Below, one piece after another: positions 2,943-23,433 of a stretch of DNA of 25,142 nucleotides; position 1 is the first letter of the stretch, and each line of letters opens with the position of its first letter. Under the pieces are notes generated by a model. That model had not been told where the DNA came from. It made no database searches and worked only from the letters and a program-made list of their open reading frames with translations. The stretch lies in the IMG/VR virus record IMGVR_UViG_3300022939_000127, positions 1 through 25,142 of that record, one strand, 5' to 3'. The translations under genes and the position numbers were made by a program. The DNA is from a virus.

Positions 2943-3435
2943 CGGAAGATCTAGCATTATTTTGTCTATACTGTTGCACAGCACTTTTTTCTCTCTGAGT
3001 TTCTGCTATTTGAGACGCTCCACCCTTTCCACCAAAGTTTCCCTTTGTGGGTTGTGTTGTCACACCACCCTGATCACCACCAGATGCTCTCGTAAGATCT
3101 TCTGTCTTAACATAGTCATTGTATTTAATGAGAGATGTTCTAGCTAAGACACCAAGAATGACTCCAGTTTGATTTGCAGGAGAGTCAGTATGTAAACCAA
3201 ATACCATGTCTCCATCACTGAGATTTACAGATCTCATTCTTTCACCATCTCCAGAACTTGCTGTCAAAGGAAGAACACAATCAAACATTCTCAATTTCTG
3301 AGGTTCTTTGATAAGCGAAGGATCATCAATACCAACCCTAAGGACACGGTATCTTACACCATGTCCCTCTTGTTTGACGTTTTGATTTTCGTCAACAACT
3401 ATCTGACCAAAGAAATATGATGGATACTTGTTCAT
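2938..3435 (-). CDS. gp5 N-terminal OB-domain-like hub protein
   Basis: The 165-aa protein has a first half rich in beta strands typical of the spike-base OB fold: FFGQIVVDENQN, then GVRYRVLRVGIDD, then LRMFDCVLPL, then LSDGDMVFGLHTD. The second half is a Gly/Gln/Ser-rich low-complexity tail, from about residue 120. In T4 the gp5 OB domain sits under gp27 and leads into a lysozyme domain; here the gene ends instead. I place the start at the ATG at 3433-3435, giving MNKYPSYFFG, because it overlaps the upstream stop as TGATG. A TTG one codon earlier is less likely. Next to it are the gp27-like hub gene (upstream) and a large structural gene (downstream). Confidence 0.65.
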   Translation of the reverse strand: MNKYPSYFFGQIVVDENQNVKQEGHGVRYRVLRVGIDDPSLIKEPQKLRMFDCVLPLTASSGDGERMRSVNLSDGDMVFGLHTDSPANQTGVILGVLARTSLIKYNDYVKTEDLTRASGGDQGGVTTQPTKGNFGGKGGASQIAETQREKSAVQQYRQNNARSSA

Positions 3436-3650
3436 CAATCCTCGTAGATTCTACACTCTAGAGCTTCTGGATTTTCATCACAATACATCTCAAAAGCACT
3501 GGGATCATGATGATCCTCTGGATGTGCCTCATGATATTTCTCCAGATGTTCTAATTCATCTGCAGTATGACGACGTTGTTGTGGTGAAAGTGTTGGATCT
3601 TGAAGGATTTCTTTATCCTTTTCGATATGATCTTCAATAGATTTTTCCAT
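3435..3650 (-). CDS. Small His/Glu-rich hypothetical protein (71 aa)
   Basis: The product is highly charged: a helical first half (IEDHIEKDKEILQD, then SPQQRRHTADELEHLEKY) followed by HEAHPEDHHDPSAFEMYC and a short acidic tail ending IYED. The cluster of six His residues with Asp/Glu between about 39 and 49, plus two Cys, could bind metal, but there is no known motif. The start ATG overlaps the gp27-like stop (TAATG) and its own stop overlaps the next ATG (TGATG), so it is translated as part of the hub operon. Function unknown; a small assembly factor is a fair guess. Confidence 0.7.
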   Translation of the reverse strand: MEKSIEDHIEKDKEILQDPTLSPQQRRHTADELEHLEKYHEAHPEDHHDPSAFEMYCDENPEALECRIYED

Positions 3651-4999
3651 TAATTTGCCTCTTTTCTTTTTTGATCTCTTACCAAAAGTACAGAAGAATA
3701 TGCTCTCTGCATATCAAAAGCATGACAGACAGCGGCTACAATATATAGCCCAGCATCGTCTGAGTCAATAATACCATCTTCAAATGAACACTCTGTTCCT
3801 TCCTCCTTTCTTTTAATATCCAGTTTAACAGAACTACCTGCAATTAGGGAGGTATTACAGGGAACCGACATACTGATCATTTCACCAAACAGACCAGTAT
3901 ATCTTGCTTTTGCAACTGCCTTTGAATCAAATGGGTTGTTTGCAGACTGACAAATGTCCTCTGGGAGTCTATAAAACATACCATAGTTCTCTAACTTAGT
4001 AGCACCCCAAGCTTGTTTTCCAAAATCGGCAACATCTGCAACCTTTACAGATCCGTTTTCAAAAGTGGTGAAATTGGTTTCAAATGTTATTGGTCCAGTT
4101 GCAGCCCAGTCATATGTAATGGGGTCCATCACAATAGGATTCACAGGACGAGATCCATCACTTCTATTTTGATTCTTTATGATCCAGTTATTTGTCTTTT
4201 TAGTAATACTAATCACTGTTCTTGATGCGAGATCAAGATTATCAATACCTGGATTTATTCCATTATATTGATATTCATATGGTTTTCTTTCAATAGCAGA
4301 ATTTTTACCACTCATACCTTCTTCTATTAATCTATCAATAGATTTGAAGTGGTGACCAAATTTTGTTTGGTAGAAGAAAAAACCAGCACTCTTATTATAT
4401 GCAGACTCGGATGCTATTCTCATAATTGATGGGAAAGTATCATCTTTCTTTTCATCACCAAAACTGATACTAAGAGTATTAGTAGCTTGATCTATAAATT
4501 CAATATCTCTATTGAAGTTTGCTTTGAAAACTGTATTTGCAATTTGTGAAGCGGGACCTTTTTTCTCACCCTTGATTTTATTTACATTTTCTAAAGTTTC
4601 TTTCCAAGAACTCTCTAATTTTAATCTAAAAGCCTCTGCAGTTTTACTGGAAGATCTATTATCAGGTGCCTCAACATACATCTTGATTTTTTGAAGACCA
4701 GCATTCTTATCATCATTATTAGCACTAACAAAATCCTTGACGGTGATTGTGACAACCTCACCACCAGCAATGTATAGTTGTTCCAGCAATTTAATGTTGG
4801 AGTATTGATTCAAAATTGCCATAGTGGCAGTTGTATTTGGTGATAAAACAGTTTCATAATAATAAAACTCAGCAACAAAAGGTGTCAGATCAAAGTCTGC
4901 CACATCTCCAACTATCTCGGACTTTGAACCATTCTGAAGCTTATATCTTGGTGTAATTGTAATCTTTTCGATTTTACTGCTAGTTACTGGATTGTCCAT
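3650..4999 (-). CDS. 27: gp27-like baseplate central hub protein
   Basis: The 449-aa protein begins with strand-rich segments (IEKITITPRYKLQNG, VADFDLTPFVAEFYYYET, TATMAILNQYSN) that match the first tube-like domain of gp27/gpD-type hub proteins. A middle part contains SAGFFFYQTKFGHHFKSID, and a C-terminal strand region has MSVPCNTSLIAGSSVKLDI, then GLYIVAAVCHAFD. In T4, gp27 (391 aa) trimerises between the tail tube and the gp5 spike. The neighbours fit that role: OB-domain spike-like gene downstream and tape-measure candidates upstream. The 'GSSVKLDIKRK... YIVAAVCH' arrangement near the end is common to this hub family. Length is slightly above T4 gp27. The call rests on pattern and context. 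Confidence 0.72.
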   Translation of the reverse strand: MDNPVTSSKIEKITITPRYKLQNGSKSEIVGDVADFDLTPFVAEFYYYETVLSPNTTATMAILNQYSNIKLLEQLYIAGGEVVTITVKDFVSANNDDKNAGLQKIKMYVEAPDNRSSSKTAEAFRLKLESSWKETLENVNKIKGEKKGPASQIANTVFKANFNRDIEFIDQATNTLSISFGDEKKDDTFPSIMRIASESAYNKSAGFFFYQTKFGHHFKSIDRLIEEGMSGKNSAIERKPYEYQYNGINPGIDNLDLASRTVISITKKTNNWIIKNQNRSDGSRPVNPIVMDPITYDWAATGPITFETNFTTFENGSVKVADVADFGKQAWGATKLENYGMFYRLPEDICQSANNPFDSKAVAKARYTGLFGEMISMSVPCNTSLIAGSSVKLDIKRKEEGTECSFEDGIIDSDDAGLYIVAAVCHAFDMQRAYSSVLLVRDQKRKEAN

Positions 5000-6483
5000 T
5001 ATTCGAATGTATCTCCTGGAGTTACGCTTCCATCAACACTGACTACTTCAATTTTAATTGTAGAAGCAGCAGCAAAAGCTGCAGCCTTTTCTTTATTTCT
5101 AATTTTTGAAACATCAATTGGTATTTCTCTATCTATGGTAATTTTTTTCTTGGGTGACTCGGATGCCAAAGTATCTGCTCTATCTATCGTGGATGATCTA
5201 TCCACTTGCATAGAAGCAGGTAAAGCTCCATCACTTGCAGTGGACCCAGCGGCACCGTGAGCAATTAATACTCCACCACTACCCATAATTTCTGCCATTC
5301 TACCACCACTACTGCTCTTGTCAGTAATAAGATCTCCAGTAGTAAGTGGGAATACACTGGCAGTTCCTGGTTGACCTGGAATTGTTAATGGTTTTCCTGG
5401 TTCTTGCTCTTGAATATCAATACCACCTTGTGTTCTTCCTGGTTGAGTATGAGCAATTTGTTCTGCATTAATTAAAGATCTCAGTTCTGAGTCCGACATT
5501 GCTTTGGTAGCATATTTTTTCACGTTACCAAAATAAACTGTGGATCCTCTTTCAAGCATTAATCTAACTGCTTTGAATGCTACTGCCCTGGCTTTTGCAT
5601 AACCTTGTGCGTCATTTGTTGGAGGACTTAAGTGGAAGTGTGTAGCATACTCACCCTCTCTACCAAAACCAGAACCACCTTGAATGAATCCTTTTCCACC
5701 AATCATTGGTGTCACTGGCAATACTGGAGGTGCTTTACTTGTTTGTCCTTCACCAGGATCTTGTCCACTTAGTTGAGCATATTCCTTTACCGTAGACTCG
5801 ATGGCTTCATCTTCTTTCATTCCACCTTTGATCTTCTTACTGGCATCTGTATGCATACCAATAAGACCCATAATCATATCCTTTGCTCTTTCAGGAAGAT
5901 CCTTAATAAATTTCATGATCGATTCGATCATTCCACTGATCATGTCACGAACTTTTGTTTCTTCACCTTCACCAAGATCTTTGTTCTGAGTTATCTTACC
6001 AAAAAGTGATCCTACTGCGTTTGAGATATTAATCGCAAAACTCTTTACTCCACCAAAGAATCCATCCAACTTCTTCATGAACTCTTTGGCTTTTGACATG
6101 AATGTCTTAACTGCCTTTATGATCTTTGGCAGTGCCTTAAGCATCCAACCAAGAAGAGTGAAACTAAAGAATAAAACAATTCTATTGAGGAATCCACCAA
6201 GTCCACCAGTGATAGGACCGTCTAACGCTCTTTCTGGTTTGCCAAAGTATTTCTTAGAATTGAATGATCCAGCAGCTTTGCCTTGCTTCTTTTCTAGTTG
6301 TCCTTCACGTTCTTCCTTACGTTTCTGTTCCTTTAACAGACCCTCTTGAAGTTTTAATTGTTTTTGTGATTTCTCAGTTGTTTTTCTATTATTAAGTAGA
6401 GTTTTGCGGATAGCTCCTGTGTTTTTACGAACAGAACCTAAGCTATTCGATAATGATGTGAATACTTTTGCTTCTATTAACAT
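4999..6483 (-). CDS. Tape measure/hub-type protein B (coiled coil, hydrophobic segment, long tail)
   Basis: Of its 494 aa, residues about 15-70 form a highly charged coiled coil (TEKSQKQLKLQEGLLKEQKR). Residues 94-121 contain the hydrophobic GGLGGFLNRIVLFFSFTLLG followed by W113, and Lys-rich amphipathic helices run to about 210. The C-terminal half is Gly/Pro/Ser-rich. It includes THFHLSPP (281-288) and GGIDIQEQEPGKPL (353-366), which faintly resemble a degraded M23 peptidase. The next gene upstream shares the GGLxxFLxxxxxFFxxTxxGW pattern with the same spacing, so the two look like ancient duplicates. Position just before the gp27-like hub fits T4 gp29, the tape measure/hub protein, or a partner of it. 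Not proven. Confidence 0.6.
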   Translation of the reverse strand: MLIEAKVFTSLSNSLGSVRKNTGAIRKTLLNNRKTTEKSQKQLKLQEGLLKEQKRKEEREGQLEKKQGKAAGSFNSKKYFGKPERALDGPITGGLGGFLNRIVLFFSFTLLGWMLKALPKIIKAVKTFMSKAKEFMKKLDGFFGGVKSFAINISNAVGSLFGKITQNKDLGEGEETKVRDMISGMIESIMKFIKDLPERAKDMIMGLIGMHTDASKKIKGGMKEDEAIESTVKEYAQLSGQDPGEGQTSKAPPVLPVTPMIGGKGFIQGGSGFGREGEYATHFHLSPPTNDAQGYAKARAVAFKAVRLMLERGSTVYFGNVKKYATKAMSDSELRSLINAEQIAHTQPGRTQGGIDIQEQEPGKPLTIPGQPGTASVFPLTTGDLITDKSSSGGRMAEIMGSGGVLIAHGAAGSTASDGALPASMQVDRSSTIDRADTLASESPKKKITIDREIPIDVSKIRNKEKAAAFAAASTIKIEVVSVDGSVTPGDTFE

Positions 6484-6484
6484 A

Positions 6485-8131
6485 TCACAAGACTCCTAAA
6501 AGAATATAAGTGCTCTTAGCATATTGCAAGAAGGCATTTTCCGTGTCAAAGGGAGAAATTCCTATACCATCAACAGGAACTGCTGCGATATCATCATCAG
6601 ATTCAGTGGCAACAGGATTAATATTGAAATTAAACTCAATGTCAGAGACGGTGTTTGCCAAATTATTAAATTGTTCGGTAACACCTGCTTTGAAATTGTC
6701 CATCATTGAGACGACGTTCTGCAATGGTGTCTCTACCATATCACCAACAAAATTCAGTCCTTTTCTTATGACAAACGCAGTTTGAGCTTCTGTTAAAGAT
6801 TCTGGGAATAACTGATCTGATGTAATCCCAAGCTTAGTTTTCAACATCTCCTGCTGCTCGGGATTCAACTGATTGAACATTGTAGAAACAATATTCCGAG
6901 CGTGCTTCATGTTATTCTGCTCTGCAGATGCTTGACTCTCTAGGTATTTGATGTAAGATTCTCTTGTGTTGAATCTTTTACCACCCTCTCTTCTAGAAGT
7001 AAAGGTTGCTTGAGCTCTGACTCTTTCTATATCTTTTTGTTTTCCTTCAAAGGCATTCTTTGCTCTATAGTATTCCTTATAAGCAGCACTAATTCTATTT
7101 CCAGTTAGTTGATCCGTGATATCTTTTCTCTGTTTTTCGGTGAGACCAGCGAGTGCTTTCTGTTCTTTGATTGCCTCTCTATTAACCTGCTCCATCTCAC
7201 CAGTTTCTACAATTTTCCCATCCTTATCTTTTCTATAGGTTTTAAACTCTTCATCAAATTTGGTGGCGGAACTTAACAATGTACTGATGTCAGTAGCACT
7301 ATAAAGTTTATCTCCTATCTTGTAGAACTGATCATAATATTTTTCTCCCTTAGTAGCCGTTCTCGGGTTACCTTGTACCAACTCAAGACCAAATTTTCTG
7401 CCCGTCGCAGCTTGTTCGTTCAAAATCCTTCTAACTCTTTCTCTTGCTCTTTGACCAGGATCTAATCCATCCATTCCTCTCTCAAAGAGTTCCATAAGAC
7501 CTACACCTGCACCAACAGCAAGCAAAGCCTTCCAAGTTATGGGATTAAGTAGAGCACCCAGAACAATTGGAATAGTTCCAATCAATGTTCCCAATGCGGT
7601 GAGTAATAATGGCAGACCAAATTGCAGAGCAGCAATGACACCACCAATGATTGCCAATGTCTTAAGAATTTTTGGGACCCACTCTTTTAATTGTTTTTTC
7701 TTCTTTTCACCATCCTGATCAAACCACTTCATTACACCCTTCGAGAACCATCCTATAAAGGTGATTGTAAAGAATTTAATGAATGGTTTTAGAAAACTAA
7801 AAAGTCCACCAGTAATCTTCTTGGCAGTATTTTTTAATCCTCTTATAATATTTTTTCCTACCGTTTTAGTGGTCTCAATCGCATTTTCAGCACTAGCTTT
7901 TGCTGCACTCTCTCTTTGTATTCTCTTTTCTCTCTGTTCTGTTTGCTGTTTCTTGATAGTGAGAGCGTTCTGCTGTTGCAGTAACTTATTAATTGATACT
8001 AAGTTTTTATTGATTGCATCTACCGTCTTCAAAAGAGTCGTAGTGTCTTTTGGAGAAAAACGGCGCATTCCTTTAAACGATGCTGCTCCACCAGATGTGC
8101 CTCGTCTAAAAGAACTTGCCGTAATTGCCAT
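6485..8131 (-). CDS. Tape measure/hub-type protein A (coiled coil and long hydrophobic region)
   Basis: The 548-aa protein starts Ser/Thr/Gly-rich and has a coiled coil at about 35-85 (INKNLVSINKLLQQQNALT, KKQQTEQREKRIQ). The shared motif follows at 108-128 (GGLFSFLKPFIKFFTITFIG, then W128). A very hydrophobic stretch at about 157-216 has helix breaks (LAIIGGVIAALQFGLPLLL, LGTLIGTIPIVLGALL). The rest is charged, helical and Gln/Arg-rich. This layout is usual for tape measure proteins, whose hydrophobic middle inserts into host membrane. It is the first gene after the gp26/gp51 pair, exactly where tape measure genes follow frameshifted tail chaperones in other phages. The start overlaps the gp51 stop (TAATG). 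Confidence 0.62.
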   Translation of the reverse strand: MAITASSFRRGTSGGAASFKGMRRFSPKDTTTLLKTVDAINKNLVSINKLLQQQNALTIKKQQTEQREKRIQRESAAKASAENAIETTKTVGKNIIRGLKNTAKKITGGLFSFLKPFIKFFTITFIGWFSKGVMKWFDQDGEKKKKQLKEWVPKILKTLAIIGGVIAALQFGLPLLLTALGTLIGTIPIVLGALLNPITWKALLAVGAGVGLMELFERGMDGLDPGQRARERVRRILNEQAATGRKFGLELVQGNPRTATKGEKYYDQFYKIGDKLYSATDISTLLSSATKFDEEFKTYRKDKDGKIVETGEMEQVNREAIKEQKALAGLTEKQRKDITDQLTGNRISAAYKEYYRAKNAFEGKQKDIERVRAQATFTSRREGGKRFNTRESYIKYLESQASAEQNNMKHARNIVSTMFNQLNPEQQEMLKTKLGITSDQLFPESLTEAQTAFVIRKGLNFVGDMVETPLQNVVSMMDNFKAGVTEQFNNLANTVSDIEFNFNINPVATESDDDIAAVPVDGIGISPFDTENAFLQYAKSTYILLGVL

Positions 8132-8313
8132 TATGCTGCGCCGTTAGCCTGTTGTTGTTTTAACTTTTCATCTTCAAGATATTGTTGAAGCAACGTAATG
8201 TAAATCTCCCTCTCCCAAGGGATCATATCTTCAAGCTCCGTCAAAGAGTATTTATGGTGCTGTATCAAGGCAAAGTTGATTTTATAGTATGACTCAAGAT
8301 TTTCATGAGCCAT
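8131..8313 (-). CDS. 51: gp51-like tail hub assembly protein / chaperone extension
   Basis: The 60-aa protein has helices SYYKINFALIQHHKYSLTEL, then MIPWEREIYITLLQQYLEDE, and ends in a Gln/Ala tail. The IPWEREIY signature is typical of the short second product of tail assembly chaperone pairs. T4 gp51 is a hub assembly catalyst. The ATG (8311-8313) lies two bases past the gp26 stop with only a weak TAGG ribosome site one base before it. The frame is open upstream through the gp26 stop and back to a T6C slippery run (8322-8328), so a gp26-gp51 fusion by -1 frameshift is possible (see findings). Confidence 0.7.
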   Translation of the reverse strand: MAHENLESYYKINFALIQHHKYSLTELEDMIPWEREIYITLLQQYLEDEKLKQQQANGAA

Positions 8314-8315
8314 AC

Positions 8316-9032
8316 CTAGCTGAAAAAACTTGCTAACCCTTCAAGAACAACATCACTTTCAACACCTGTATTTGGATTTCTAACCTTCACAGTATGAGAA
8401 AGTTTTGGCATTGTAGTAAAAAACTTTTCAATAGACTGGAATTGAGTAGATCCTAAGTTTTCAATAAATTCTACCAACTCTTTGTGTGTATGGTCAGTGC
8501 CAGCCCAAGACTCTTCTTCGGTATAAATTTGATCAATGCAATTAGCGATCATGTCAAAAGACTGTTCGATTTCCGCATCACCCTCGACAAAATTACTCTT
8601 GACAAATTCATTCAAAGATGGATATCTCATCTTCATGAAATATTGGTCATCTAATTGAACAGTGGTACTATGTTCTGGATCTTTTTGAACCTGAATATCA
8701 CTTAGAGCAATTGTCACGGGAACCTGAGTGTCATTATCATCAGGACATGTCAAGAGAACATCCACAGATTCACCAACAGACTTACCACGAATATTGAGAA
8801 ACAGATACTCAATATCAAATGTAGATAGTTTTTCTACTTTAATACCTCTTGTCAAGATACAGTTTGAAATTACCTGTTTAACTGCTGTGGCAATTTCTTT
8901 TAAATTTTCACTCTCCATCGCAATGATAAGAAGTTTCTCTTCCTTGACCAAGAAAGGTCTATATTTTATCTTCCTATCAGATGAGGGTAAAGTCAACTCA
9001 TATGTAGGAGCATTAATCTTTGGCAGTGTCAT
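8316..9032 (-). CDS. 26: gp26-like baseplate hub subunit / tail assembly chaperone
   Basis: The 238-aa protein matches the T4_baseplate (gp26) family by pattern. The N-terminus has YELTLPSSDRKIKYRPFLVK, then EEKLLIIAMESEN. A Cys/Thr-rich region contains ISNCILTRGI, then LSTFDIEYLFLNIRGKSVGE. The chain then has beta strands (CPDDNDTQVPVTIAL) and a helical C-terminus ending LEGLASFFS. T4 gp26 is needed to build the central hub. The last codons AGT TTT TTC AGC form a U_UUU_UUC heptamer. A late-like AATAAATA box lies about 26 bases upstream of the ATG at 9030-9032. Confidence 0.78.
   Translation of the reverse strand: MTLPKINAPTYELTLPSSDRKIKYRPFLVKEEKLLIIAMESENLKEIATAVKQVISNCILTRGIKVEKLSTFDIEYLFLNIRGKSVGESVDVLLTCPDDNDTQVPVTIALSDIQVQKDPEHSTTVQLDDQYFMKMRYPSLNEFVKSNFVEGDAEIEQSFDMIANCIDQIYTEEESWAGTDHTHKELVEFIENLGSTQFQSIEKFFTTMPKLSHTVKVRNPNTGVESDVVLEGLASFFS
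8322..8328 (-). promoter_or_regulatory. Candidate -1 ribosomal frameshift site (T TTT TTC)
   Basis: Read in the gp26 frame (minus strand) the bases are AGT TTT TTC AGC TAG, so the heptamer T_TTT_TTC has the X_XXY_YYZ phase of an efficient -1 slippery site. The -1 frame continues CAG CTA GGT ATG into gp51 without a stop. Phase and openness were checked by hand. Whether slipping occurs is inference from the many tail chaperone pairs that use it. Confidence 0.55.
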
Positions 9033-9057: not shown

Positions 9058-9065
9058 TATTTATT
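9058..9065 (-). promoter_or_regulatory. T4-late-like box AATAAATA before gp26
   Basis: The minus strand reads GAATAAATA, matching the T4 late element TATAAATA at 7 of 8 positions. It lies about 26 bases upstream of the gp26 ATG, a sensible leader length. The TAA stop of the gp54-like gene (9061-9063) is inside the box. The region is AT-rich, so chance occurrence is possible. Confidence 0.4.
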
Positions 9066-9756
9066 CATCTTTTTTGAAGGTAATGAACTCACCTCTTTGA
9101 TTGAAAGCTTGTCTCAATGACTTGGAATAACTATCCATTGCACCGAAGATATATCGATCATACTCAAATGTAACAGTCACTTCTAATACTCTAGACGCAT
9201 CATAAGAGACCTGAGTAGATGCAACGTTCTTTGGATATGCGCCTAAGAAATTATATTCAATACCATTCTTGTGATCTCTGTCATATTTGATCAGTCTCAG
9301 TCTATCACACTTATAGGCATCTGGATACTTAACTCTATAATAGTAATTCTTTTGATCAAAATCAACACCATCGGTAGTATTTGATCCACTCAAAATAAAC
9401 TCTTGCCAAAGTTCAAAAAACTTCTGAACTCTGTATTCATAGTCAACATAAAAACGCATTGTTACAGGTTGAAACTGTCTCCTGTAAGCAAAGTTTTCGG
9501 TTACACCTGGAAATTGATCTCTGGCAGGTGCAGAAGCAATTTGTGTGCCAGGGATTTGTGCCTGACGACAGTATTCACCTAAGTCCCTTTTAATAAAGTC
9601 TGTTGTTACGCCACGTTGTCTCAAGTAAGTAGACAACTGACCAAGTGCCTCAATTCCTTCAAAACGAACTTTGTAGTGAGAGGTCTGAGCTACTCTGGCA
9701 AAGTTAGCAATGAGATCATCTGTGGTTTTTGGTTTTATGTTCTCTCTAAATGACAC
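9061..9756 (-). CDS. 54: gp54-like baseplate/tail tube initiator (tail tube fold)
   Basis: This 231-aa protein starts at GTG (9754-9756), with AGAGG eight bases upstream. The tail tube fold is visible in order: TSHYKVRFEGIEALGQL, a helix, then EYCRQAQIPGTQIAS and FAYRRQFQPVTMRFYVDYEY. A helix follows (VQKFFELWQEFI), then YYYRVKYPDAYKC and strands ending RVLEVTVTFEYDRYIF. The 'AQIPG...R...PVTMRFYVDYE' layout is common to tube and tube-initiator proteins (gp19, gp48, gp54). Length is above T4 gp19 (163 aa) and below T4 gp54 (320 aa). I prefer gp54 because gp48 is nearby and no sheath gene flanks it. It is transcribed away from the gp4-gp53 operon. Confidence 0.65.
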   Translation of the reverse strand: MSFRENIKPKTTDDLIANFARVAQTSHYKVRFEGIEALGQLSTYLRQRGVTTDFIKRDLGEYCRQAQIPGTQIASAPARDQFPGVTENFAYRRQFQPVTMRFYVDYEYRVQKFFELWQEFILSGSNTTDGVDFDQKNYYYRVKYPDAYKCDRLRLIKYDRDHKNGIEYNFLGAYPKNVASTQVSYDASRVLEVTVTFEYDRYIFGAMDSYSKSLRQAFNQRGEFITFKKDE

Positions 9757-15421: not shown

Positions 15422-16094
15422 ATTGGTTTAGTTTGTGTTCTACAAAGTTTTGGACGTATCTTGCAAGTAATTTAATATACTCAGTCTTTTCTTCACCTCT
15501 GATGACATACTCTACAACTTCGCCATTTTCACATGACATAAGGATAACAAACTTCTTGACAAGAATATCTGTCAACTCGTAGAACATACAGGCATATGCT
15601 GCTGCCTGTACAAAGTAATTTTCAATCCACTCTTTGGGTTTGGGTTTTGCTGCTGTCTTAAAGTCAATGACTGCCAACTCACCATCATATTCTGCAATGC
15701 AGTCAACGGTGCCAGCAATACCCAAGTGAAGACTGTAAAGACTGTCTTCCAAAGCGTGGATATTGTCAATCTTATTCAGATATGGTTTTGCTTGCTTAAA
15801 CAAATACTCTGACAATGGTTGAACGGAAGGGAGTTCTTCATTCTTCAGGTAACTTTCAGCAAGAGAGTGCATATCAGTCCCACGGCTTGTTGCCTTTCTA
15901 GTAATCTGATTTGCTTTCTCTTCGCCTACTTTTTTTCTCCAATCAGCAAACACCTGCCGATTGTAAAAACTGGTGACCGAAGTAATGGACACCAGTTTCC
16001 GAAGTTCATCCTCTGTGGGAAGTTTATAGTAACGAACTCCATCAATACTCTCCCTCTCAAGTTGAGGGAGATTCACGTCAACAAAATTAAACAT
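15405..16094 (-). CDS. PD-(D/E)XK exonuclease, Cas4/RecB-like
   Basis: The nuclease core of this 229-aa protein is visible: TDMHSLAESYL with His76, GIAGTVDCIAEYDG with Asp131, LAVIDFKTAAKPK with Asp144-x-Lys146, and the following helix YFVQAAAYACMFYEL with Gln163-x3-Tyr167. This is the RecB/Cas4 motif set (H, D, D-x-K, QxxxY). No Cys cluster for an iron-sulfur site is seen, so it is not a full Cas4. Such phage nucleases are thought to act in recombination or host DNA breakdown. TAATG overlap with phoH ties their translation. Confidence 0.83.
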   Translation of the reverse strand: MFNFVDVNLPQLERESIDGVRYYKLPTEDELRKLVSITSVTSFYNRQVFADWRKKVGEEKANQITRKATSRGTDMHSLAESYLKNEELPSVQPLSEYLFKQAKPYLNKIDNIHALEDSLYSLHLGIAGTVDCIAEYDGELAVIDFKTAAKPKPKEWIENYFVQAAAYACMFYELTDILVKKFVILMSCENGEVVEYVIRGEEKTEYIKLLARYVQNFVEHKLNQYGTGT

Positions 16095-16852
16095 TAAAAA
16101 CCCATTGCCAGTTTCTTGATGATATACTCCTTGACAAGTCCAGAACGAACAATATCTTCAGTGTCAAATTCGACGATATTGAATGATTCCATTTGCTCAA
16201 TGATTTTCATGAAATCCATGATTCCATTTCTTTCATTAGATTTTGTCAAGTCGGATTGGGTGGCGTCACCACAGAACATAATTTTAGAATTGTCACCCAC
16301 TCGTGTAATTATACTATCTAATTCGTGAAAATTCAAGTTTTGACACTCATCCACGATGAGAATTGCATCATCAAAGGTGGTTCCACGAACAAAAGATGTA
16401 GACCAGAAGCTAATCGTCTCCTGTGCCTTTAGATTACCATACAGCATCTCAAAGTCTGCATCTGTGGGCATCTCAAACATATACTTGACCATATTCTTAT
16501 AAGGAATCTGGTAAAGTGCAGACTTGTCTTCATGGTCACCAGGGAGAAATCCAATCTCTCTTGTAGCGACCAAAGAACGAATGATGTAAATCTTGTTATA
16601 AGGTGTGTACTCGTTGAGAACGTCTTTTAGTGCATTATATAAAGCAATAAAAGTTTTTCCTGTTCCTGCACATCCATATAGAAAAGCATTCTGTCCTTTT
16701 TCGTATGCGGCAAAAAACTTTTTCTGGTTTTCAGTTAGAGGTTCGATATCAACCAATAAATCTTGGTTGATTGGTTTTCTCCTCTTCATTTGTTTTGCAG
16801 TATAACCAGCACCAACAGGTGAAACTTCAACAGACTTTCTCTTTCTGGGCAT
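16094..16852 (-). CDS. phoH: PhoH-like P-loop ATPase
   Basis: In this 252-aa protein the basic N-terminus is followed by LTENQKKFFAAYEKGQ, Walker A LYGCAGTGKTFIALYNAL (G60-T67), IYIIRSLVATREIGFLPGD, Walker B AILIVDECQNLN (Asp168-Glu169), and CGDATQSDL (194-202). These are the PhoH family motifs in the right order and length. PhoH is almost universal in cyanomyoviruses; it is an ATP-driven enzyme acting on RNA or nucleic acid, with its phage role unproven. No Pho box could be recognised upstream. It leads the replication/late transcription operon. Confidence 0.93.
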   Translation of the reverse strand: MPRKRKSVEVSPVGAGYTAKQMKRRKPINQDLLVDIEPLTENQKKFFAAYEKGQNAFLYGCAGTGKTFIALYNALKDVLNEYTPYNKIYIIRSLVATREIGFLPGDHEDKSALYQIPYKNMVKYMFEMPTDADFEMLYGNLKAQETISFWSTSFVRGTTFDDAILIVDECQNLNFHELDSIITRVGDNSKIMFCGDATQSDLTKSNERNGIMDFMKIIEQMESFNIVEFDTEDIVRSGLVKEYIIKKLAMGF

Positions 16853-16857
16853 AAGTT

Positions 16858-17112
16858 TTAGTCGAGGGTTAGTTTTTGACGGTTTCTACCAGCTGTCTGT
16901 GCTTTTTTAAGCACATCATTCCAGCCAGGGTTTTTATTATACAGTTTATCCTTCCACTCACCAACTTCACCCACACCAGGTACAGTTGATGGATCAGAAT
17001 AATCACGCAGCCAATCTGGATTGTCTGCTTTCCATTGATCCCAGTCATGAACACTCATGACTACTTCTTTTTGTTCACCAGTTTTCGTGTTTACTACAGG
17101 ATAGGATGCCAT
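16858..17112 (-). CDS. Small conserved phage protein (84 aa), FmdB-like remnant
   Basis: I start this gene at the ATG at 17110-17112 (MASYPVVNTKTGEQKEV). A longer frame to 17325 exists but would run antiparallel-phase through thyX. Motifs are VVMSVHDWDQWKADNPDW, SDPSTVPGVGEVGEWKDKLY and NPGWNDVLKKAQTAGRN. The layout (short strand region, a helix with 'W..DNPDW', a loop, then 'PGWNDVLKK') is that of FmdB-like phage proteins that have lost the Cys pairs; no Cys remains. Function unknown. It lies between thyX and phoH. Confidence 0.7.
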   Translation of the reverse strand: MASYPVVNTKTGEQKEVVMSVHDWDQWKADNPDWLRDYSDPSTVPGVGEVGEWKDKLYNKNPGWNDVLKKAQTAGRNRQKLTLD

Positions 17113-17131
17113 GATGATAATAAAAAAGTAT

Positions 17132-17767
17132 TTAGACCCACTCAAGTGCTTCAGACACTGCTGGGAAGACTTCGGTAAAAATCTTCTTGCACTCGTTTGC
17201 AATATCCATGTGTTCCTGCTGAGTGCCGTTAGCAGAACGCAGTTGGATATAGTGAATCCATGAGCGACATGAACCTGACATATAGAGTCTGGTTGGAGTT
17301 GCCAGAGGAAGTACAAAGCGAGCACACTCTTTTGCGATGCCCTCGTCCAACATTTGCTGATACAAATTCATTCCCTGACGGAAGTGATTTTGCATCAGAA
17401 TCTCAAACCTTTGTTTCTTATGCTCGTCAACGTTATCAATAGAATTTTGACGATTCTTATGATCTTGGGATCGCAGTGCTGGGAGGGGAATCTCCTCGGA
17501 GAGTAAGGAAGAATCAGCATATCGTTGTGAGAACTCTTGATATGTGAACGAACGATGTCGCAAAATTTGAGCTGCCAGACCACGAGTAGTTTCAATCTCC
17601 AAAGTCATGAAACTCTGTTCAAATACAGACCAGTGATTGTGCTTGATGCAATATCCCAACAATTTTGCATAGTTAGGATTATCTTGATTGCTAGGGTTTG
17701 AGACTCTAGCAATATATGCCATATTCTCTTCAGGATTCGGTGTTGCTTGAATCAGTTTTACTTTCAT
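17132..17767 (-). CDS. thyX: Flavin-dependent thymidylate synthase ThyX
   Basis: The 211-aa protein holds the ThyX signature RHRX7S: Arg70-His71-Arg72 followed by SFTYQEF and Ser80, then QRYAD. Other family segments are MAYIARVSNPSNQDN, HWSVFEQSFMTLEIETTRGL, ARFVLPLATPTRLYMSGS and RSWIHYIQLRSANGTQQEHM. The enzyme makes dTMP from dUMP using FAD, NADPH and methylene-tetrahydrofolate, feeding phage DNA synthesis. Length is typical. The start ATG lies inside the end of the upstream small gene (38-base overlap). Confidence 0.95.
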   Translation of the reverse strand: MKVKLIQATPNPEENMAYIARVSNPSNQDNPNYAKLLGYCIKHNHWSVFEQSFMTLEIETTRGLAAQILRHRSFTYQEFSQRYADSSLLSEEIPLPALRSQDHKNRQNSIDNVDEHKKQRFEILMQNHFRQGMNLYQQMLDEGIAKECARFVLPLATPTRLYMSGSCRSWIHYIQLRSANGTQQEHMDIANECKKIFTEVFPAVSEALEWV

Positions 17768-17906
17768 TCTTCCTCATTTGTTTCAATTTCAATTGCTTTT
17801 TCGCTGCCTTTCTTGCTTTACGCATGAAAGTCAGTTCTCCTTCATTATACAACCATGGTTGCTTAAGTGCTTCTTTAGTTAATCTGATTGTGTCCTTGAG
17901 ACGCAT
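17730..17906 (-). CDS. Small basic helical protein (58 aa)
   Basis: The frame starts MRLKDTIRLTKEALKQPWLY with an ATG at 17904-17906, continues GELTFMRKARKAAKKQLK and ends with a Ser/Thr-rich tail whose stop lies inside thyX. It is strongly basic in the middle (RKARKAAKKQLKLKQ), which suggests nucleic acid binding or an RNA polymerase or ribosome partner, but no known fold is assigned. Similar small 'RL(K/R)DTIRLT.EAL' proteins occur in cyanomyoviruses. It overlaps neighbours on both sides (32 and 38 bases), consistent with coupled translation. Confidence 0.65.
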   Translation of the reverse strand: MRLKDTIRLTKEALKQPWLYNEGELTFMRKARKAAKKQLKLKQMRKNESKTDSSNTES

Positions 17907-18120
17907 AGTAGACCTCGTAATACTTGATGATACCGTGTGTAATCATATTGCCCTGAGACACCCAATCATGGGCGCACTCATATATGCTCTGATTAGAATA
18001 TTTAGGTGTACCATCTGGAGTCAACTCTGATCCAAATCTCTGCAGAAGCGTCTTCAAACATGCTTGTCTGACCTTCATCTTTTGATCAGAGTATCTCCAA
18101 TCAGTCAGGGTATCCGTCAT
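17875..18120 (-). CDS. Hypothetical protein (81 aa)
   Basis: I take the ATG at 18118-18120, giving MTDTLTDWRYSDQKMKVRQA. The longer frame to 18225 covers most of the upstream gene in another phase. The body reads CLKTLLQRFGSELTP, YSNQSIYECAHDWVSQGN and THGIIKYYEVYYASQG. It looks like a compact helical protein with aromatic residues, two Cys and no catalytic motif. It overlaps the upstream gene by 20 bases. Function unknown; part of the early-type small-gene cluster driven by the promoter at 18324. Confidence 0.65.
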   Translation of the reverse strand: MTDTLTDWRYSDQKMKVRQACLKTLLQRFGSELTPDGTPKYSNQSIYECAHDWVSQGNMITHGIIKYYEVYYASQGHNQIN

Positions 18121-18304
18121 CGTCGTCAAAAATTTCGTCGTAATCGTGGTGAATTGTAGACAGTGTAGAAGATCCTCCATACATATCAACTCTTTCTTCT
18201 GCAACAGCACGGAAAGAGTCAACATCAGAATAAACTTCCGATTCTAGAGATTCAACCAAAAGTTTCAGATTTCGTACAATTAATTTTAACTTGTCTCTGT
18301 CCAT
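18101..18304 (-). CDS. Small acidic protein (67 aa), first gene after the 18324 promoter
   Basis: A helical start (DKLKLIVRNLKLLVESLESE) leads to SDVDSFRAVAEERVD, then a very acidic end (DEIFDDDDGYPD). The ATG at 18302-18304 lies about 13 bases after the predicted transcription start and has no Shine-Dalgarno, so translation starts on a very short leader. The acidic tail could mimic DNA or contact a basic partner, but nothing more can be said. It is the first gene of a run that continues to thyX. Confidence 0.7.
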   Translation of the reverse strand: MDRDKLKLIVRNLKLLVESLESEVYSDVDSFRAVAEERVDMYGGSSTLSTIHHDYDEIFDDDDGYPD

Positions 18305-18323
18305 GGCAGTCTAGTTTACTCAT

Positions 18324-18352
18324 ATTATAAACAAAAAAAGAGGGAAAGTCAA
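18324..18352 (-). promoter_or_regulatory. sigma70 promoter TTGACT-17-TATAAT
   Basis: The minus strand has -35 TTGACT (18347-18352), exactly 17 bases of spacer and consensus -10 TATAAT (18324-18329). The start would be near 18317, just before the gene at 18101-18304. The -35 hexamer forms the loop of the terminator hairpin at 18339-18360 and contains the TGA stop of the gene at 18349-18504. Confidence 0.85.
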
Positions 18353-18360
18353 TTCCCTCT
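18339..18360 (-). terminator. Intrinsic terminator overlapping a promoter
   Basis: AGAGGGAA and TTCCCTCT form a perfect 8-bp stem with a 6-base loop, and the minus strand continues with a T-run (TTTTTTTG). It would end transcripts coming from the DUF4278-like genes. The same T-run is part of the spacer of the next promoter. Confidence 0.75.
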
Positions 18361-18504
18361 CGTTACTAAGACTTTCTCAAGCCAGTCTTTCATGTGAATG
18401 CGATAACAGGACCAGTAGTAACATCCTCTGTATTTGAGTTGATAACACGCTGGTGGTCTATTATCTTTATCCATATCATCGTAATGATATCGATAATACT
18501 CCAT
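18349..18504 (-). CDS. Small YRG-motif protein (51 aa)
   Basis: The frame starts MEYYRYHYDDMDKDN and carries LKYRGCYYWSCYRIHMKDWL. The YRGxxY element (Y25-R26-G27) is the core of DUF4278-like proteins and also appears twice in the gene just upstream, so the two may be diverged relatives. The product is Tyr- and Cys-rich. Its ATG shares one base with the preceding TGA (TGATG). Its own TGA is inside the terminator loop and -35 box. Function unknown. Confidence 0.65.
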   Translation of the reverse strand: MEYYRYHYDDMDKDNRPPACYQLKYRGCYYWSCYRIHMKDWLEKVLVTRGN

Positions 18505-18671
18505 CACTTGTTATAGGTGCGTCCACGATAGCAGAAAGTACCGTGAGTTTCCTTTGGTTCGTGACCACAGGTTTCGTAAACCACACCACGATATGCAGTG
18601 TGAGAAATCTGTGCATCGTGAAGAGCAGATGCCTTGTTGATCTGCTTTTTGATGAGAGTTAAGGTGTTCAT
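18504..18671 (-). CDS. DUF4278-like protein (55 aa)
   Basis: The protein starts MNTLTLIKKQINKASALHD and has two YRG units: HTAYRGVVYETC (Tyr27) and GTFCYRGRTYNK (Tyr48), joined by GHEPKETH. This double x-Y-R-G-x-x-Y pattern is what I know as DUF4278, a short family of cyanobacteria and their phages with no known function. A strong AGGAG site lies eight bases before the ATG at 18669-18671, the best ribosome site of this cluster, which suggests high expression. Confidence 0.75.
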   Translation of the reverse strand: MNTLTLIKKQINKASALHDAQISHTAYRGVVYETCGHEPKETHGTFCYRGRTYNK

Positions 18672-18713
18672 GAGTTTACTCCTGAAATACTAGGGATTTT
18701 TAGCCCCGTTCCT

Positions 18714-18875
18714 TCAGTCGTTTGCGTCCCAATAGCACTCAGGTGCAGATTCCTTGACGGTCTCTACTAGTTCTACCTTCACAAGTGCAGGTAGATCATC
18801 ATGCTTGGAAATCCGAATCATTAAATCATCGGCTTCCTTACATGTGAGCGTTGTGTATAGAAATAATTCTAACAT
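18714..18875 (-). CDS. Small conserved cyanophage-type protein (53 aa)
   Basis: The protein reads MLELFLYTTLTCKEADDLM, then ISKHDDLPALVKVELVETVK, and ends ESAPECYWDAND. The start resembles a tiny signal or surface helix (LFLYTTLTC), and the rest is helical with a conserved-looking Cys/Trp/Asp end. I recall near-identical small proteins in many cyanomyoviruses, all unassigned. There is no Shine-Dalgarno; the ATG (18873-18875) is instead preceded by CGTTCATCC, the same motif found before the gene at 18911-19111. Confidence 0.7.
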   Translation of the reverse strand: MLELFLYTTLTCKEADDLMIRISKHDDLPALVKVELVETVKESAPECYWDAND

Positions 18876-18876
18876 G

Positions 18877-18885
18877 GGATGAACG
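18877..18885 (-). promoter_or_regulatory. CGTTCATCC start-adjacent motif, copy 1
   Basis: CGTTCATCC lies one base before the ATG of the 18714-18875 gene. Its first five bases can pair with GAACG (18889-18893) to form a small hairpin with loop GAG. An identical 9-mer lies at the same distance from the next upstream gene. No Shine-Dalgarno is present at either start. Confidence 0.4.
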
Positions 18886-18910
18886 CTCCGTTCCGCGACT
18901 TACTTGCGTC

Positions 18911-19111
18911 CTAGACCAGCATCTCATTGCACTCACCTTTTACCTTAGATCTAAGATAACCGATAAGATTATACTTGGATCTGGTGTCTAAATTGTCATC
19001 CATAAGGATTTCAATTCGTTGTTGTAGATACCTTTCACAACTCATATGCCACCCATAAGGTGAACTATCATTATGATGGGCTAAGGTAAATGCCAGTAGG
19101 ATACTGAGCAT
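18911..19111 (-). CDS. Small conserved cyanophage-type protein (66 aa)
   Basis: I place the start at ATG 19109-19111 (MLSILLAFTLAHHNDSSPYG). A perfect promoter ends about 12 bases upstream of it, and a longer frame to 19279 would put that promoter inside the gene. The body reads WHMSCERYLQQRIEILMDD and YNLIGYLRSKVKGECNEM. The N-terminus is hydrophobic but short, and the rest is helical with two Cys. I remember the 'YNLIGYLR(S/T)KV' pattern from cyanomyovirus proteins of unknown function. The leader lacks a Shine-Dalgarno and carries CGTTCATCC. Confidence 0.7.
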   Translation of the reverse strand: MLSILLAFTLAHHNDSSPYGWHMSCERYLQQRIEILMDDNLDTRSKYNLIGYLRSKVKGECNEMLV

Positions 19112-19112
19112 T

Positions 19113-19121
19113 GGATGAACG
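19113..19121 (-). promoter_or_regulatory. CGTTCATCC start-adjacent motif, copy 2
   Basis: This is the same 9-mer as at 18877-18885, again one base before an ATG and just after the predicted transcription start of the promoter at 19130-19158. Confidence 0.4.
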
Positions 19122-19129
19122 ACAAGGAT

Positions 19130-19158
19130 ATTATAGTCCTCGTTTCTATTTATGTCAA
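19130..19158 (-). promoter_or_regulatory. Consensus sigma70 promoter TTGACA-17-TATAAT
   Basis: The minus strand has TTGACA (19153-19158), 17 bases and TATAAT (19130-19135), a perfect match to the bacterial consensus. Start would be near 19123, leaving a leader of about 12 bases. It should drive the small genes at 18911, 18714, 18504 and 18349 up to the terminator at 18339. Confidence 0.88.
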
Positions 19159-19215
19159 CACTGTTGCAATCACTACATTTTGTATCATAGCGAACCCTAC
19201 AGAGCAAAAAATTTG

Positions 19216-19231
19216 GGGAATTTTTTTTCCC
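19216..19231 (-). terminator. Weak hairpin, possible terminator
   Basis: GGGAA-A6-TTCCC followed after four bases by TTTTTT on the minus strand, shortly after the stop of the 19243-19554 gene. The stem is only 5 bp (6 with the flanking G), so termination would be weak. Confidence 0.3.
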
Positions 19232-19242
19232 GATATTTTGGA

Positions 19243-19554
19243 TTATTTTTTCGATTTTGGTTTTGGGTCTTCTCCCCATGTCTTTGGGTTGGCAGTGCCT
19301 GGACCCCAGACAATACTCTTCAACCCCTCACGATACTTGTCCCAGTACATATCAAAGAGTCTCAATCTCTTTCCAGTTCTGGTCAAGTCATAGTATGTTT
19401 TCCCATCAATAACGTATGTAACCAAGTATGCATCATTAGGCAGTGACTTGTCATTGAGCTGCCTGGTGTTAGCGTTCTGATGGAGCACGGTACAACCGTA
19501 GATTCTTTTACAATCTTGCAGTTCCTCCGCAGTCCACAGATCGTTATCAGCCAC
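19243..19554 (-). CDS. Hypothetical protein (103 aa, GTG start)
   Basis: I choose GTG at 19552-19554, which overlaps the upstream stop as GTGGCTGA, instead of an ATG at 19621-19623 that would overlap the DUF6433-like gene by 77 bases. The same GTG..TGA arrangement occurs at the DUF1825-like gene. Motifs: LWTAEELQDCKRIYGCTVLH, RQLNDKSLPNDAYLVTYVID, TYYDLTRTGKRLRLFDMYWD and SIVWGPGTANPKTWG, then a Lys/Pro-rich end. The protein is mixed alpha/beta and basic at the C-terminus. No known domain recognised; similar proteins ('LPNDAYLV.Y', 'FDMYWD') occur in other cyanomyoviruses. Confidence 0.68.
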   Translation of the reverse strand: MADNDLWTAEELQDCKRIYGCTVLHQNANTRQLNDKSLPNDAYLVTYVIDGKTYYDLTRTGKRLRLFDMYWDKYREGLKSIVWGPGTANPKTWGEDPKPKSKK

Positions 19555-19996
19555 GGGATCCCCAGATGATGTCGGGATAGGCTTCTTTAACAGTGTTGTG
19601 GGTGATTTTGTATCGTTTTCCAAGTTGCTTATCCTTTACTAGACAAAGACATTCAGCTTCTTCTGGGTGAAGCGACTCAAGAAGTTGAATGAACATAGAC
19701 TCCCTACGAGTGGTCTTCAGAGAGTCATTACCCCCCTTCACAAAGTTATAGAGGATTCTATACTGACTGTTGAGTCTGCTTACACCTTCACCAGTCTTAT
19801 TGTCGTTAGGGGTGTAAGGAACCTCACCATCGGGCACCGCAGACTCAATGGTCTCATCAAAATTCCAAACAAAAAGATGAATCAATGCAGGACTTCTATA
19901 CTCTTGCAAGATAGAGATCTTTTCTGCTTTTGTTTTTGCGTTTGAAACTTTTTGAAATACCTCAGTTACAAGAGGATTGGGGGGCAATTTAGCCAT
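19547..19996 (-). CDS. DUF6433-like protein (149 aa)
   Basis: By eye this is the conserved cyanophage family DUF6433: PLVTEVFQKVSNAKTKAEKI, then ILQEYRSPALIHLFVWNFDE, PDGEVPYTPNDN, RLNSQYRILYNFVKGGNDSL, ESMFIQLLESLHPEEAECLC and YKITHNTVKEAYPDIIWGS. The protein is mostly helical, and its function is not known. It is often found near host-takeover or replication genes in these phages. GGAG lies seven bases upstream of the ATG at 19994-19996. Confidence 0.8.
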   Translation of the reverse strand: MAKLPPNPLVTEVFQKVSNAKTKAEKISILQEYRSPALIHLFVWNFDETIESAVPDGEVPYTPNDNKTGEGVSRLNSQYRILYNFVKGGNDSLKTTRRESMFIQLLESLHPEEAECLCLVKDKQLGKRYKITHNTVKEAYPDIIWGSRG

Positions 19997-20014
19997 GATT
20001 AAACTCCAAAATAA

Positions 20015-20233
20015 TTAATCTTCTTCTTCAAAATCGTCATCATAAGTGAATTTGAATGCAATCAATGAATCATGGATGACGTTTCCATTTTCATCATACA
20101 TCTCTGGGTGCATTGTTGGTTGTTCAGTTGCATTATACAACAGATACTCTCTGGTTGTCCATCCAACCACTCCACCAACCAAGAACGCCATGAACGCAAC
20201 TAACGTTCCAAAAACAAGACTGACTGCTAACAT
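20015..20233 (-). CDS. Small single-pass membrane protein (72 aa)
   Basis: I choose the ATG at 20231-20233, which has AGGAG seven bases upstream, over an earlier ATG at 20284 that falls inside leader hairpins. The product starts MLAVSLVFGTLVAFMAFLVG followed by GVVGWTTREYLLYN, a clear membrane helix at about 3-25. A soluble part then has HPEMYDENGNVIHDSLIAF and an acidic end (DDDFEEED). Similar proteins with 'HPEM(Y/F)DENGN' are common in cyanomyoviruses; role unknown. Its leader (20234-20324) can form alternative hairpins, and two promoter elements lie just upstream. Confidence 0.75.
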   Translation of the reverse strand: MLAVSLVFGTLVAFMAFLVGGVVGWTTREYLLYNATEQPTMHPEMYDENGNVIHDSLIAFKFTYDDDFEEED

Positions 20234-20236
20234 TTT

Positions 20237-20308
20237 AGTTCTCCTGGAACTCCCTAATTGGTCGTTCCTCAAGGGAACAACCACTTTACTTAAAGTGTGA
20301 GTTGTTCC
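20237..20308 (-). promoter_or_regulatory. Structured mRNA leader with alternative hairpins
   Basis: In mRNA order: A GGAACAAC (20301-20308); a small hairpin CACTTT-AAGT-AAAGTG (20282-20297); B GTTGTTCC (20274-20281); C GGAACGAC (20261-20268); D AGTTCC (20246-20251); E GAACT (20237-20241). A pairs perfectly with B. B also pairs with C (one G-U). C pairs with D over GGAAC/GTTCC, and D pairs with E so that AGGAG lies mostly in a 5-base loop. These pairings compete. Complementarity was read directly; regulation is inference. Confidence 0.5.
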
Positions 20309-20324
20309 TCCATAACTTAAAATT

Positions 20325-20332
20325 TATTTATA
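20325..20332 (-). promoter_or_regulatory. T4 late promoter box TATAAATA (perfect)
   Basis: The minus strand carries the exact T4 late -10 element TATAAATA. A transcript would start near 20318, about 10 bases before segment A of the structured leader, and serve the membrane protein gene and those after it. This is the best late box in the window. Confidence 0.65.
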
Positions 20333-20334
20333 CT

Positions 20335-20343
20335 ATTATAACA
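20335..20343 (-). promoter_or_regulatory. Extended -10 promoter TGTTATAAT
   Basis: TGTTATAAT on the minus strand is an extended -10 with consensus TATAAT. It has no good -35. It lies directly before the late box, so this gene may have tandem early and late promoters. The TAA stop of the glutaredoxin gene is inside it. Confidence 0.45.
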
Positions 20344-20596
20344 GGTTTTGCTCCTGAAGGAAGTGCAATGTGTCTTTGCATCCTCCAATGTGTTGGTTGT
20401 TGATTGAAACCTGTGGGAAAGTGGCACCCTCACCAAACTCTTTGTAGAATTGCTCCTTAGTAAAGTCCTCTTCATACTTATATTGAATGTAATCAATGTG
20501 AAGAGTATCAAATAACATTCGGACTCTTTCGCACCATTGACAATTATCTTTGGAATAAAAAACGGCTTTCATTTTAGTCTTTTGATTTACTTCCAT
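20336..20596 (-). CDS. grx: Glutaredoxin
   Basis: The 86-aa protein has the glutaredoxin fold order: KAVFYSKDNCQWCERVRMLF with the active site Cys19-Gln-Trp-Cys22, a helix and a second strand (IDYIQYKYEED). TFPQVSINNQHIGGCKDTLH follows, with the cis-proline Pro61 and GG-C-D for glutathione binding. It reduces disulfides; in phages it often serves ribonucleotide reductase, though none is in this window. The first ATG (AGGAG four bases before it, overlapping the oxygenase stop) is preferred; Met9 is an alternative. It is co-transcribed with the 2OG oxygenase gene. Confidence 0.92.
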   Translation of the reverse strand: MEVNQKTKMKAVFYSKDNCQWCERVRMLFDTLHIDYIQYKYEEDFTKEQFYKEFGEGATFPQVSINNQHIGGCKDTLHFLQEQNLL

Positions 20597-23425: not shown

Positions 23426-23433
23426 TATTTATC
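23426..23433 (-). promoter_or_regulatory. T4-late-like box GATAAATA
   Basis: GATAAATA on the minus strand matches the late element at 7 of 8 positions, 18 bases upstream of the fibre-like gene. It contains the TAA stop (23429-23431) of the subtilase gene. Confidence 0.4.

Follow-up and report, generated by a model that had tools for sequence, protein, structure and literature searches.

The genes annotated as gp26 and gp51 in this T4-like cyanophage genome are best read as one expression unit, in which a -1 frameshift at the end of gp26 would yield both a short tail assembly chaperone (TAC-N) and a longer one (TAC-NC); judging from the sequence evidence, we put the probability of this reading at about 0.94. 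Many other tailed viruses make their longer chaperone by frameshifting, and the virus described here, an ocean virus of the T4-like cyanophage group, very probably does likewise. A preliminary description of this DNA had proposed the fusion, and sequence comparison supports it on several lines: a slippery heptamer conserved in site and phase, an extension in the -1 frame, loss of the gp51 start codon in some lineages, a covarying hairpin and a Shine-Dalgarno (SD)-like element, a homologue of the whole fusion in T4 gp51, and a chaperone-like fold.

The junction of gp26 and gp51

The window, meaning the whole 25,142-nt stretch of DNA that was analyzed (positions 1 to 25,142 of IMG/VR record IMGVR_UViG_3300022939_000127), is a 25-kb genome fragment with a single match to gp26. 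The features of the locus are as follows.

8316..9032, minus strand: gp26 ORF, 238 aa, putative short tail assembly chaperone (TAC-N), from Pfam T4_baseplate, PHROG 150 and the predicted fold
8337..8342, minus strand: SD-like element GAAGGG, 8 nt upstream of the heptamer (GAGGG in most relatives)
8322-8328, minus strand: slippery heptamer T_TTT_TTC in the X_XXY_YYZ phase of gp26, invariant at codon level among relatives
8316-8318, minus strand: gp26 0-frame stop TAG, one codon past the heptamer
8311-8313, minus strand: gp51 ATG, 2 nt after the gp26 stop
8286..8316, minus strand: predicted downstream hairpin with an 11-bp stem (arms 8306-8316 and 8286-8296), 5 nt after the heptamer
8131..8322, minus strand: -1 frame extension, predicted C-terminal domain of the long chaperone, from PHROG 634 and the C-terminal end of PHROG 150, alignments and start-less relatives

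In the gp26 frame the minus strand ends GAA GGG TTA GCA AGT TTT TTC AGC TAG GT ATG GCT, which bears out the earlier observation that T_TTT_TTC stands in the exact phase for -1 slippage. Also as described, the -1 frame after the slip (CAG CTA GGT ATG GCT) runs into gp51 and is stop-free to 8131. The annotated gp51 begins at 8313 and is 60 aa long in the window; the predicted junction peptide, SFF-QLG-MAHEN, continuing as ...SFF-QLG-MAHENLESYYKINF..., would add the three residues QLG before the annotated gp51 Met. The near absence of a Shine-Dalgarno sequence at the gp51 ATG was likewise confirmed, the sole SD-like triplet (AGG) ending 1 nt before the ATG and leaving no usable SD. Since TTTTTT[C/T] occurs in phase 3 times in 7438 codon steps across the main ORFs of the window, a heptamer at one gene end is a modest surprise in a single genome, and among the sequence evidence it is conservation that is decisive.

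Conservation of the heptamer across relatives

Relatives were collected by scanning IMG/VR with gp26, which returned 80 close ones, by further scans that returned distant ones, and by adding named phages; 128 loci were compared, and twelve further named phages were read separately. Dereplication at 90% identity left 82 sequences (lineages), 63 of them close relatives. T_TTT_TTC or T_TTT_TTT lies in phase at the gp26 end in 124 of the 128 loci, with the second ORF in the -1 frame, and the gp26 stop (TAG, TAA or TGA) follows 0-2 codons past the heptamer. In the alignment of relatives the second ORF is open from the heptamer onward and conserved as a protein. The preliminary description had suggested aligning this junction, and none of the contrary outcomes that could be checked in this way was found. 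The four loci without the heptamer are one of T4 type (L087), two Vibrio phages with TAATG overlaps (L088 and L089), and an IMG/VR contig (L093) with an early stop inside gp26 that is probably a sequencing error.

The arrangement is found in named phages from many genera, P-SSM2, S-N03, S-RSM4, HTVC008M and Melnitz-1 among them, and those with the site include cyanophages, a pelagiphage and a Methylophilales phage. Straboviridae outside Tevenvirinae also carry it (Vibrio phage VH7D, Aeromonas phages P19 and 65), as do Stenotrophomonas phage BUCT608, Pseudomonas phages Astolliot and pf16, Sinorhizobium phage M7, Agrobacterium phage OLIVR6 and Xanthomonas phage X1; the heptamer of Sinorhizobium phage phiM9 is TTTTTTG. 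Frameshifting was also considered for VAP7, D506 and Maynard, relatives of the Ackermannviridae/Vibrio type, but no canonical heptamer was found in them. These relatives do retain the -1 extension (L088 5239-5241, L089 5089-5091, L138 3796-3798), with TAATG in VAP7 and D506 and no nearby start in Maynard.

Codon usage at the site suggests that selection acts on the nucleotides of the heptamer and not on the protein. Among the dereplicated close relatives the first codon of the C-terminal Phe pair is TTT in 63/63 and the second TTC in 63/63, and each of the other conserved Phe columns, ten in all, contains both codons. The codon in front of the pair encodes Ser (AGT, TCT), Ala (GCT) or Asn (AAT), or in distant relatives Asp (GAT), and always ends in T. 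Probabilities of 10^-45 and 10^-14 calculated for this conservation assume independence and take no account of shared ancestry; a fairer control is the mixture of codons seen at the remaining Phe columns.

Loss of the gp51 start codon

In 16 of the 82 lineages gp51 has no start codon: the stretch between the last -1-frame stop and the fifth codon beyond the slip contains neither ATG nor GTG nor TTG, so that only a frameshift could express gp51 there. The -1 frame opens merely 7-10 nt before the gp26 stop in 10 lineages, which confines the switch to the heptamer or its immediate neighbourhood, and in the shortest cases (L126 and L129, for example) a TGA directly touches the heptamer, so that the frames can meet only there. 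The depositors of ACG-2014b and ACG-2014d left gp51 unannotated, and in both genomes the -1 extension and the heptamer are intact. The gp51 ATG is retained in 65 of the 82 lineages. Four contigs from different samples (L012, L020, L027 and L028) have lost the gp51 ATG and kept the heptamer; L012, the one of the four that was checked for it, has lost the hairpin along with the ATG.

Stimulatory elements around the predicted slip site

Two stimulatory signals, a hairpin and an SD-like bias, are present around the slip site and are missing in some lineages. The hairpin of the window has a minimum free energy of -15.6 kcal/mol (z -5.1). Across 62 distinct sequences, 91% of its cells are paired and five pairs have changed on both sides; its covariation score lies above all 500 shuffles (0/500 as high) and all slid versions, the clearest covarying pair (columns 21/35) appearing as U-A, G-C and A-U. 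The distant lineages L084, L099 and L105 have stems of unrelated sequence at about the same place. The 5' arm of the hairpin contains the gp51 ATG, which argues against independent initiation. No convincing hairpin was found in the frameshift-type lineages L012, L104, L126, L129 and Astolliot; with the hairpin weak or absent in several lineages, the stimulators are not universal and the hairpin is not indispensable.

Upstream, the Glu codon that begins the SD-like element is GAG in 57/63, compared with 443/1470 (30%) at the other Glu codons of gp26 (Fisher p 1.6e-22). Anti-SD duplex energies were computed for the element; the GAA of the window gives a weaker anti-SD match than the GAG of most relatives. 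Its position, about 8 nt before the heptamer, has the spacing that stimulates -1 slippage in dnaX.

The following account of what ribosomes do at the site, how often they slip and what the products are for is inferred. Most ribosomes would stop at the gp26 TAG and release TAC-N. On a minority, with tRNA-Phe paired to the TTT and TTC of T_TTT_TTC, a pause at the hairpin 5 nt downstream, aided by the SD-like GAGGG/GAAGGG upstream, would allow a slip of one base backward into the -1 frame. The resulting TAC-NC would be gp26 minus its last residue, continued by QLG and all 60 residues of gp51. On the model of lambda gpG/gpGT and P2 gpE/gpE+E', the role of TAC-N would be to coat the tape measure protein, and that of the TAC-NC C-terminal domain to bring in tail tube subunits.

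Fold and identity of gp26

The short protein of the window is a member of Pfam T4_baseplate (1.7e-75) and PHROG 150 (3.9e-83). An AlphaFold2 model built from a 36-sequence alignment (pLDDT 87.7, pTM 0.80) has as its best matches among solved structures the HK97 TAC 2ob9 (Z 8.0), 3fgx (7.9) and YqbN 3klu (7.2), the last two of which we take to be TAC-like phage proteins; the fourth, 5ir0, is of unknown function (Z 5.4), and the next rows are unrelated at 4.2 and below. These matches span the N-terminal 86-96 residues of gp26 only, at an rmsd of 4.0-4.2. A plain Foldseek search also placed 2ob9 among its top matches, with weak E-values, and a gp26 profile search against solved structures gave chance matches only. 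The modeled N-domain of gp26 thus appears, by its best matches, to have a tail-assembly-chaperone-like fold. Together with the tail tube gene that immediately precedes gp26, this favors TAC-N as the identity of gp26 and TAC-NC as that of the frameshift product. The fold likewise supports the suggestion, made in the preliminary description and apparently already published, that T4-type gp26/gp51 belong to the general tail chaperone system. The cyanophage 'gp51' is on this reading just the C-terminal domain of the long form.

Citrobacter phage Moon (L148 2620-4258) carries an annotation that conflicts with gp26/gp51 as the chaperones, its gp27 and gp28 being joined as a 'GT-like' tape measure chaperone fusion. 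We set that assignment aside because T4 gp27 is a structural hub protein of solved structure (PMC3004832).

The counterpart in T4

The gp26 and gp51 proteins of T4 have been listed as hub assembly chaperones, gp51 being needed for assembly and absent from the particle (PMC3004832). The preliminary description noted that genes 26 and 51 are separate in T4; this is true, but T4 gp51 (249 aa) matches the whole predicted fusion and not the 60-aa ORF. T4-type gp51 matches PHROG 150 over 13-280 of 282 and Pfam T4_baseplate over its residues 1-201. Its match to the family of the cyanophage gp51 ORF lies in the C-terminal part. The junction aligns without gaps between ASFFQLGMAHENLESYYKINFAL of the window and T4 gp51, the residues before the gp51 ATG included. 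This domain content and the ungapped junction indicate that T4 gp51 is the in-frame equivalent of the predicted gp26-gp51 fusion. T4 encodes the long form in a gene of its own, the full-length gene 51, whereas the window locus has no separate complete long-form gene of T4 type, its 'gp51' comprising 60 aa and the C-terminal domain only, and the long form would have to come by frameshift.

All four T4-type gp26 genes keep Phe-Phe in the non-slippery order TTC TTT and are followed by gene 25. In an N-domain tree, which has long branches and no fixed root position, Tevenvirinae gp26 and gp51-N form a group separate from the rest (100/93), the pattern that a duplication in that line would produce. 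We see an even chance that phages of the T4 superfamily have at least two, and possibly three, interchangeable routes to the one chaperone pair: the three-part frameshift cassette in cyanophages and many others, a gene duplication (gp26 and full-length gp51) in Tevenvirinae with the slippery site silently erased, and perhaps stop-start coupling in Vibrio/Ackermannviridae-type relatives. If so, the group amounts to a natural experiment in ways of encoding a fixed ratio of chaperones.

Neighbouring genes and the tape measure

The gene order places the tail tube gene upstream of gp26/gp51, and the gene downstream fits a tape measure in position and size.

9061..9756, minus strand: tail tube protein, directly upstream of gp26 (Pfam Phage_TTP_2 3.6e-10, PHROG 45 tail tube 3e-34)
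6485..8131, minus strand: 548-aa gene, candidate tape measure protein in the tape measure position, overlapping the end of gp51
4999..6483, minus strand: 494-aa gene, N-terminal paralogue of the 548-aa gene (hhalign P 95.8, E 6.6e-9, about 140 residues)

Counterparts of the 548-aa gene lie directly downstream in essentially all relatives, mostly at 426-648 aa and in some cases up to about 1000, and they form a fast-evolving family with 10-36% identity to the window copy. Some members hit tape measure PHROGs, the best at 1.4e-15, and muralytic domains occur in some. The 548-aa protein has a hydrophobic stretch at 151-198, and the 494-aa protein a weak tape measure PHROG match (0.0026). The 548-aa protein of the window matches neither the tape measure families of its relatives nor T4 gp29, and direct profile comparison of both proteins with T4 gp29 returned nothing; the tape measure claim therefore rests on position and family neighbours. 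The preliminary description took the gene at 6485-8131, if the fusion held, to be the tape measure, which position and family fit and which finds no direct sequence match in T4 gp29. Tape measure is a plausible and the likeliest candidate identity of the 548-aa product, the 494-aa product or both.

The shared N-terminal region of these tandem genes suggests an old duplication of a tape-measure-like gene. Elsewhere on the minus strand of the window, a CP12-domain gene (3435-3650; Pfam 3.3e-14), a cyanophage metabolic gene, sits amid tail baseplate genes, and a subtilase-family protein (Peptidase_S8, 5.6e-20) is encoded near the window end at 23429-25102. Typical cyanophage genes lie within 16094-21240, namely PhoH (16094-16852), ThyX (17132-17767), a glutaredoxin (20336-20596) and a 2OG-Fe(II) oxygenase (20587-21240).

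Alternative explanations

Ribosomes might instead terminate at the gp26 TAG and begin again at the gp51 ATG 2 nt on, making separate proteins and no fusion. The TAG-GT-ATG spacing in the window and most close relatives would suit such termination-reinitiation, from which a free gp51 could also arise, and coupling of this kind may serve the side branch in which VAP7 and D506 have TAATG overlaps and no canonical heptamer. As an account of the locus it is nevertheless very unlikely: it fails the start-less lineages (16/82) and the ORF that the annotators of ACG-2014b and ACG-2014d left out, and it leaves unexplained why the heptamer is conserved codon by codon, while the residues before the ATG align ungapped with T4 gp51 and the hairpin covers the ATG. 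Both routes could operate, the frameshift giving the long form and the ATG a little free C-terminal domain in the lineages that have it. That 65 of the 82 lineages keep the ATG speaks for this, but the ATG lies within the stem and has no usable SD, and the Met it encodes often has a Leu at the same position of the fusion elsewhere, so that the ATG may be mere amino-acid preference; we consider dual expression doubtful.

Two further proposals concern the heptamer itself. Slippage of the transcribing polymerase in the T run, and not of the ribosome, could make the fused frame, since the run is homopolymeric with six or seven T. Six T is a short run for transcriptional slippage, however, the run never exceeds seven T in the 124 loci, and the phase, the hairpin spacing and the SD-like spacing all fit ribosomal -1 slippage, leaving this origin barely credible. 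To the idea that the Phe-Phe codons are conserved for the protein alone, the heptamer being incidental, we attach a negligible probability: Phe-Phe is indeed conserved even in T4-type gp26, but there in the order TTC TTT, and the codon statistics contradict it, the other conserved Phe columns varying freely.

Prior descriptions and significance

The frameshift idea for T4-like TACs is not new. Going by the papers that cite it, Vladimirov, Gautam and Davidson (2022, Virology 566:9-15) described T4-like TACs as a short gene and a fused long gene (PMC10885494, PMC12846349), and poly-T slippery signals in the TAC-N genes of T4-like phages are attributed to that study by PMC12846349. The T4-like TACs gp26/gp51 of that work would, again according to PMC10885494 and PMC12846349, be of the same protein family as those of the window; that gp26 is their short form is what we infer ourselves. 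In the open-access literature we found no report of the cyanophage frameshift cassette, and one may exist elsewhere. The full cassette (heptamer, SD-like element, covarying hairpin and start-less gp51) may therefore be undescribed for cyanophages, and it and the silenced heptamer of Tevenvirinae are additions at least to the literature surveyed.

By DNA, 412 phage records match the locus, among them hundreds of deposited marine cyanophage genomes, and in the records inspected gp51 either appears as a free-standing 'baseplate hub assembly catalyst' or is left out of the annotation. If correct, the frameshift reading tells which proteins are the tail chaperones of phages that rank among the most abundant in the ocean. 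It would then account for the long-standing T4 finding that gp51 is needed for assembly yet missing from the virion (PMC3004832), and it would direct attention to the likely tape measure gene. A further gain is a matched natural contrast between a frameshift where one gene makes both forms and a silenced slippery site where two genes do.

Comparison with known systems

The locus shares with lambda gpG/gpGT, a -1 frameshift TAC system (PMC5009743), and with P2 gpE/gpE+E' the order tail tube, TAC, TAC and, putatively, tape measure, as well as a -1 slip, here predicted, on an XXXYYYZ heptamer close to where the short form ends, which gives a minority fusion product. Unlike the lambda and P2 proteins, those of the window belong by sequence to a different family, and the TTTTTTC site has an SD-like element before it and, 5 nt beyond it, a compact hairpin. 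The slippery site of P2 is T_TTT_TTG. The TAC locus of Vandenendeviridae/Andersonviridae (phage Adele, PMC12846349) resembles that of the window in belonging to a myophage, in having a poly-T -1 site that is conserved, and in a -1 frame that runs on without interruption; its motif is GTTTTT and that of the window TTTTTTC, and the likeness described here is one of site and frame.

In the layout of its signals the site resembles E. coli dnaX, each having an SD-like element in front of a homopolymeric heptamer and a hairpin behind it. In dnaX the SD-like element stands about 8-10 nt before the heptamer, which is A_AAA_AAG, and the hairpin about 5 nt after. There the gene is cellular and the shift shortens the product, whereas at the gp26/gp51 junction the predicted shift would lengthen it.
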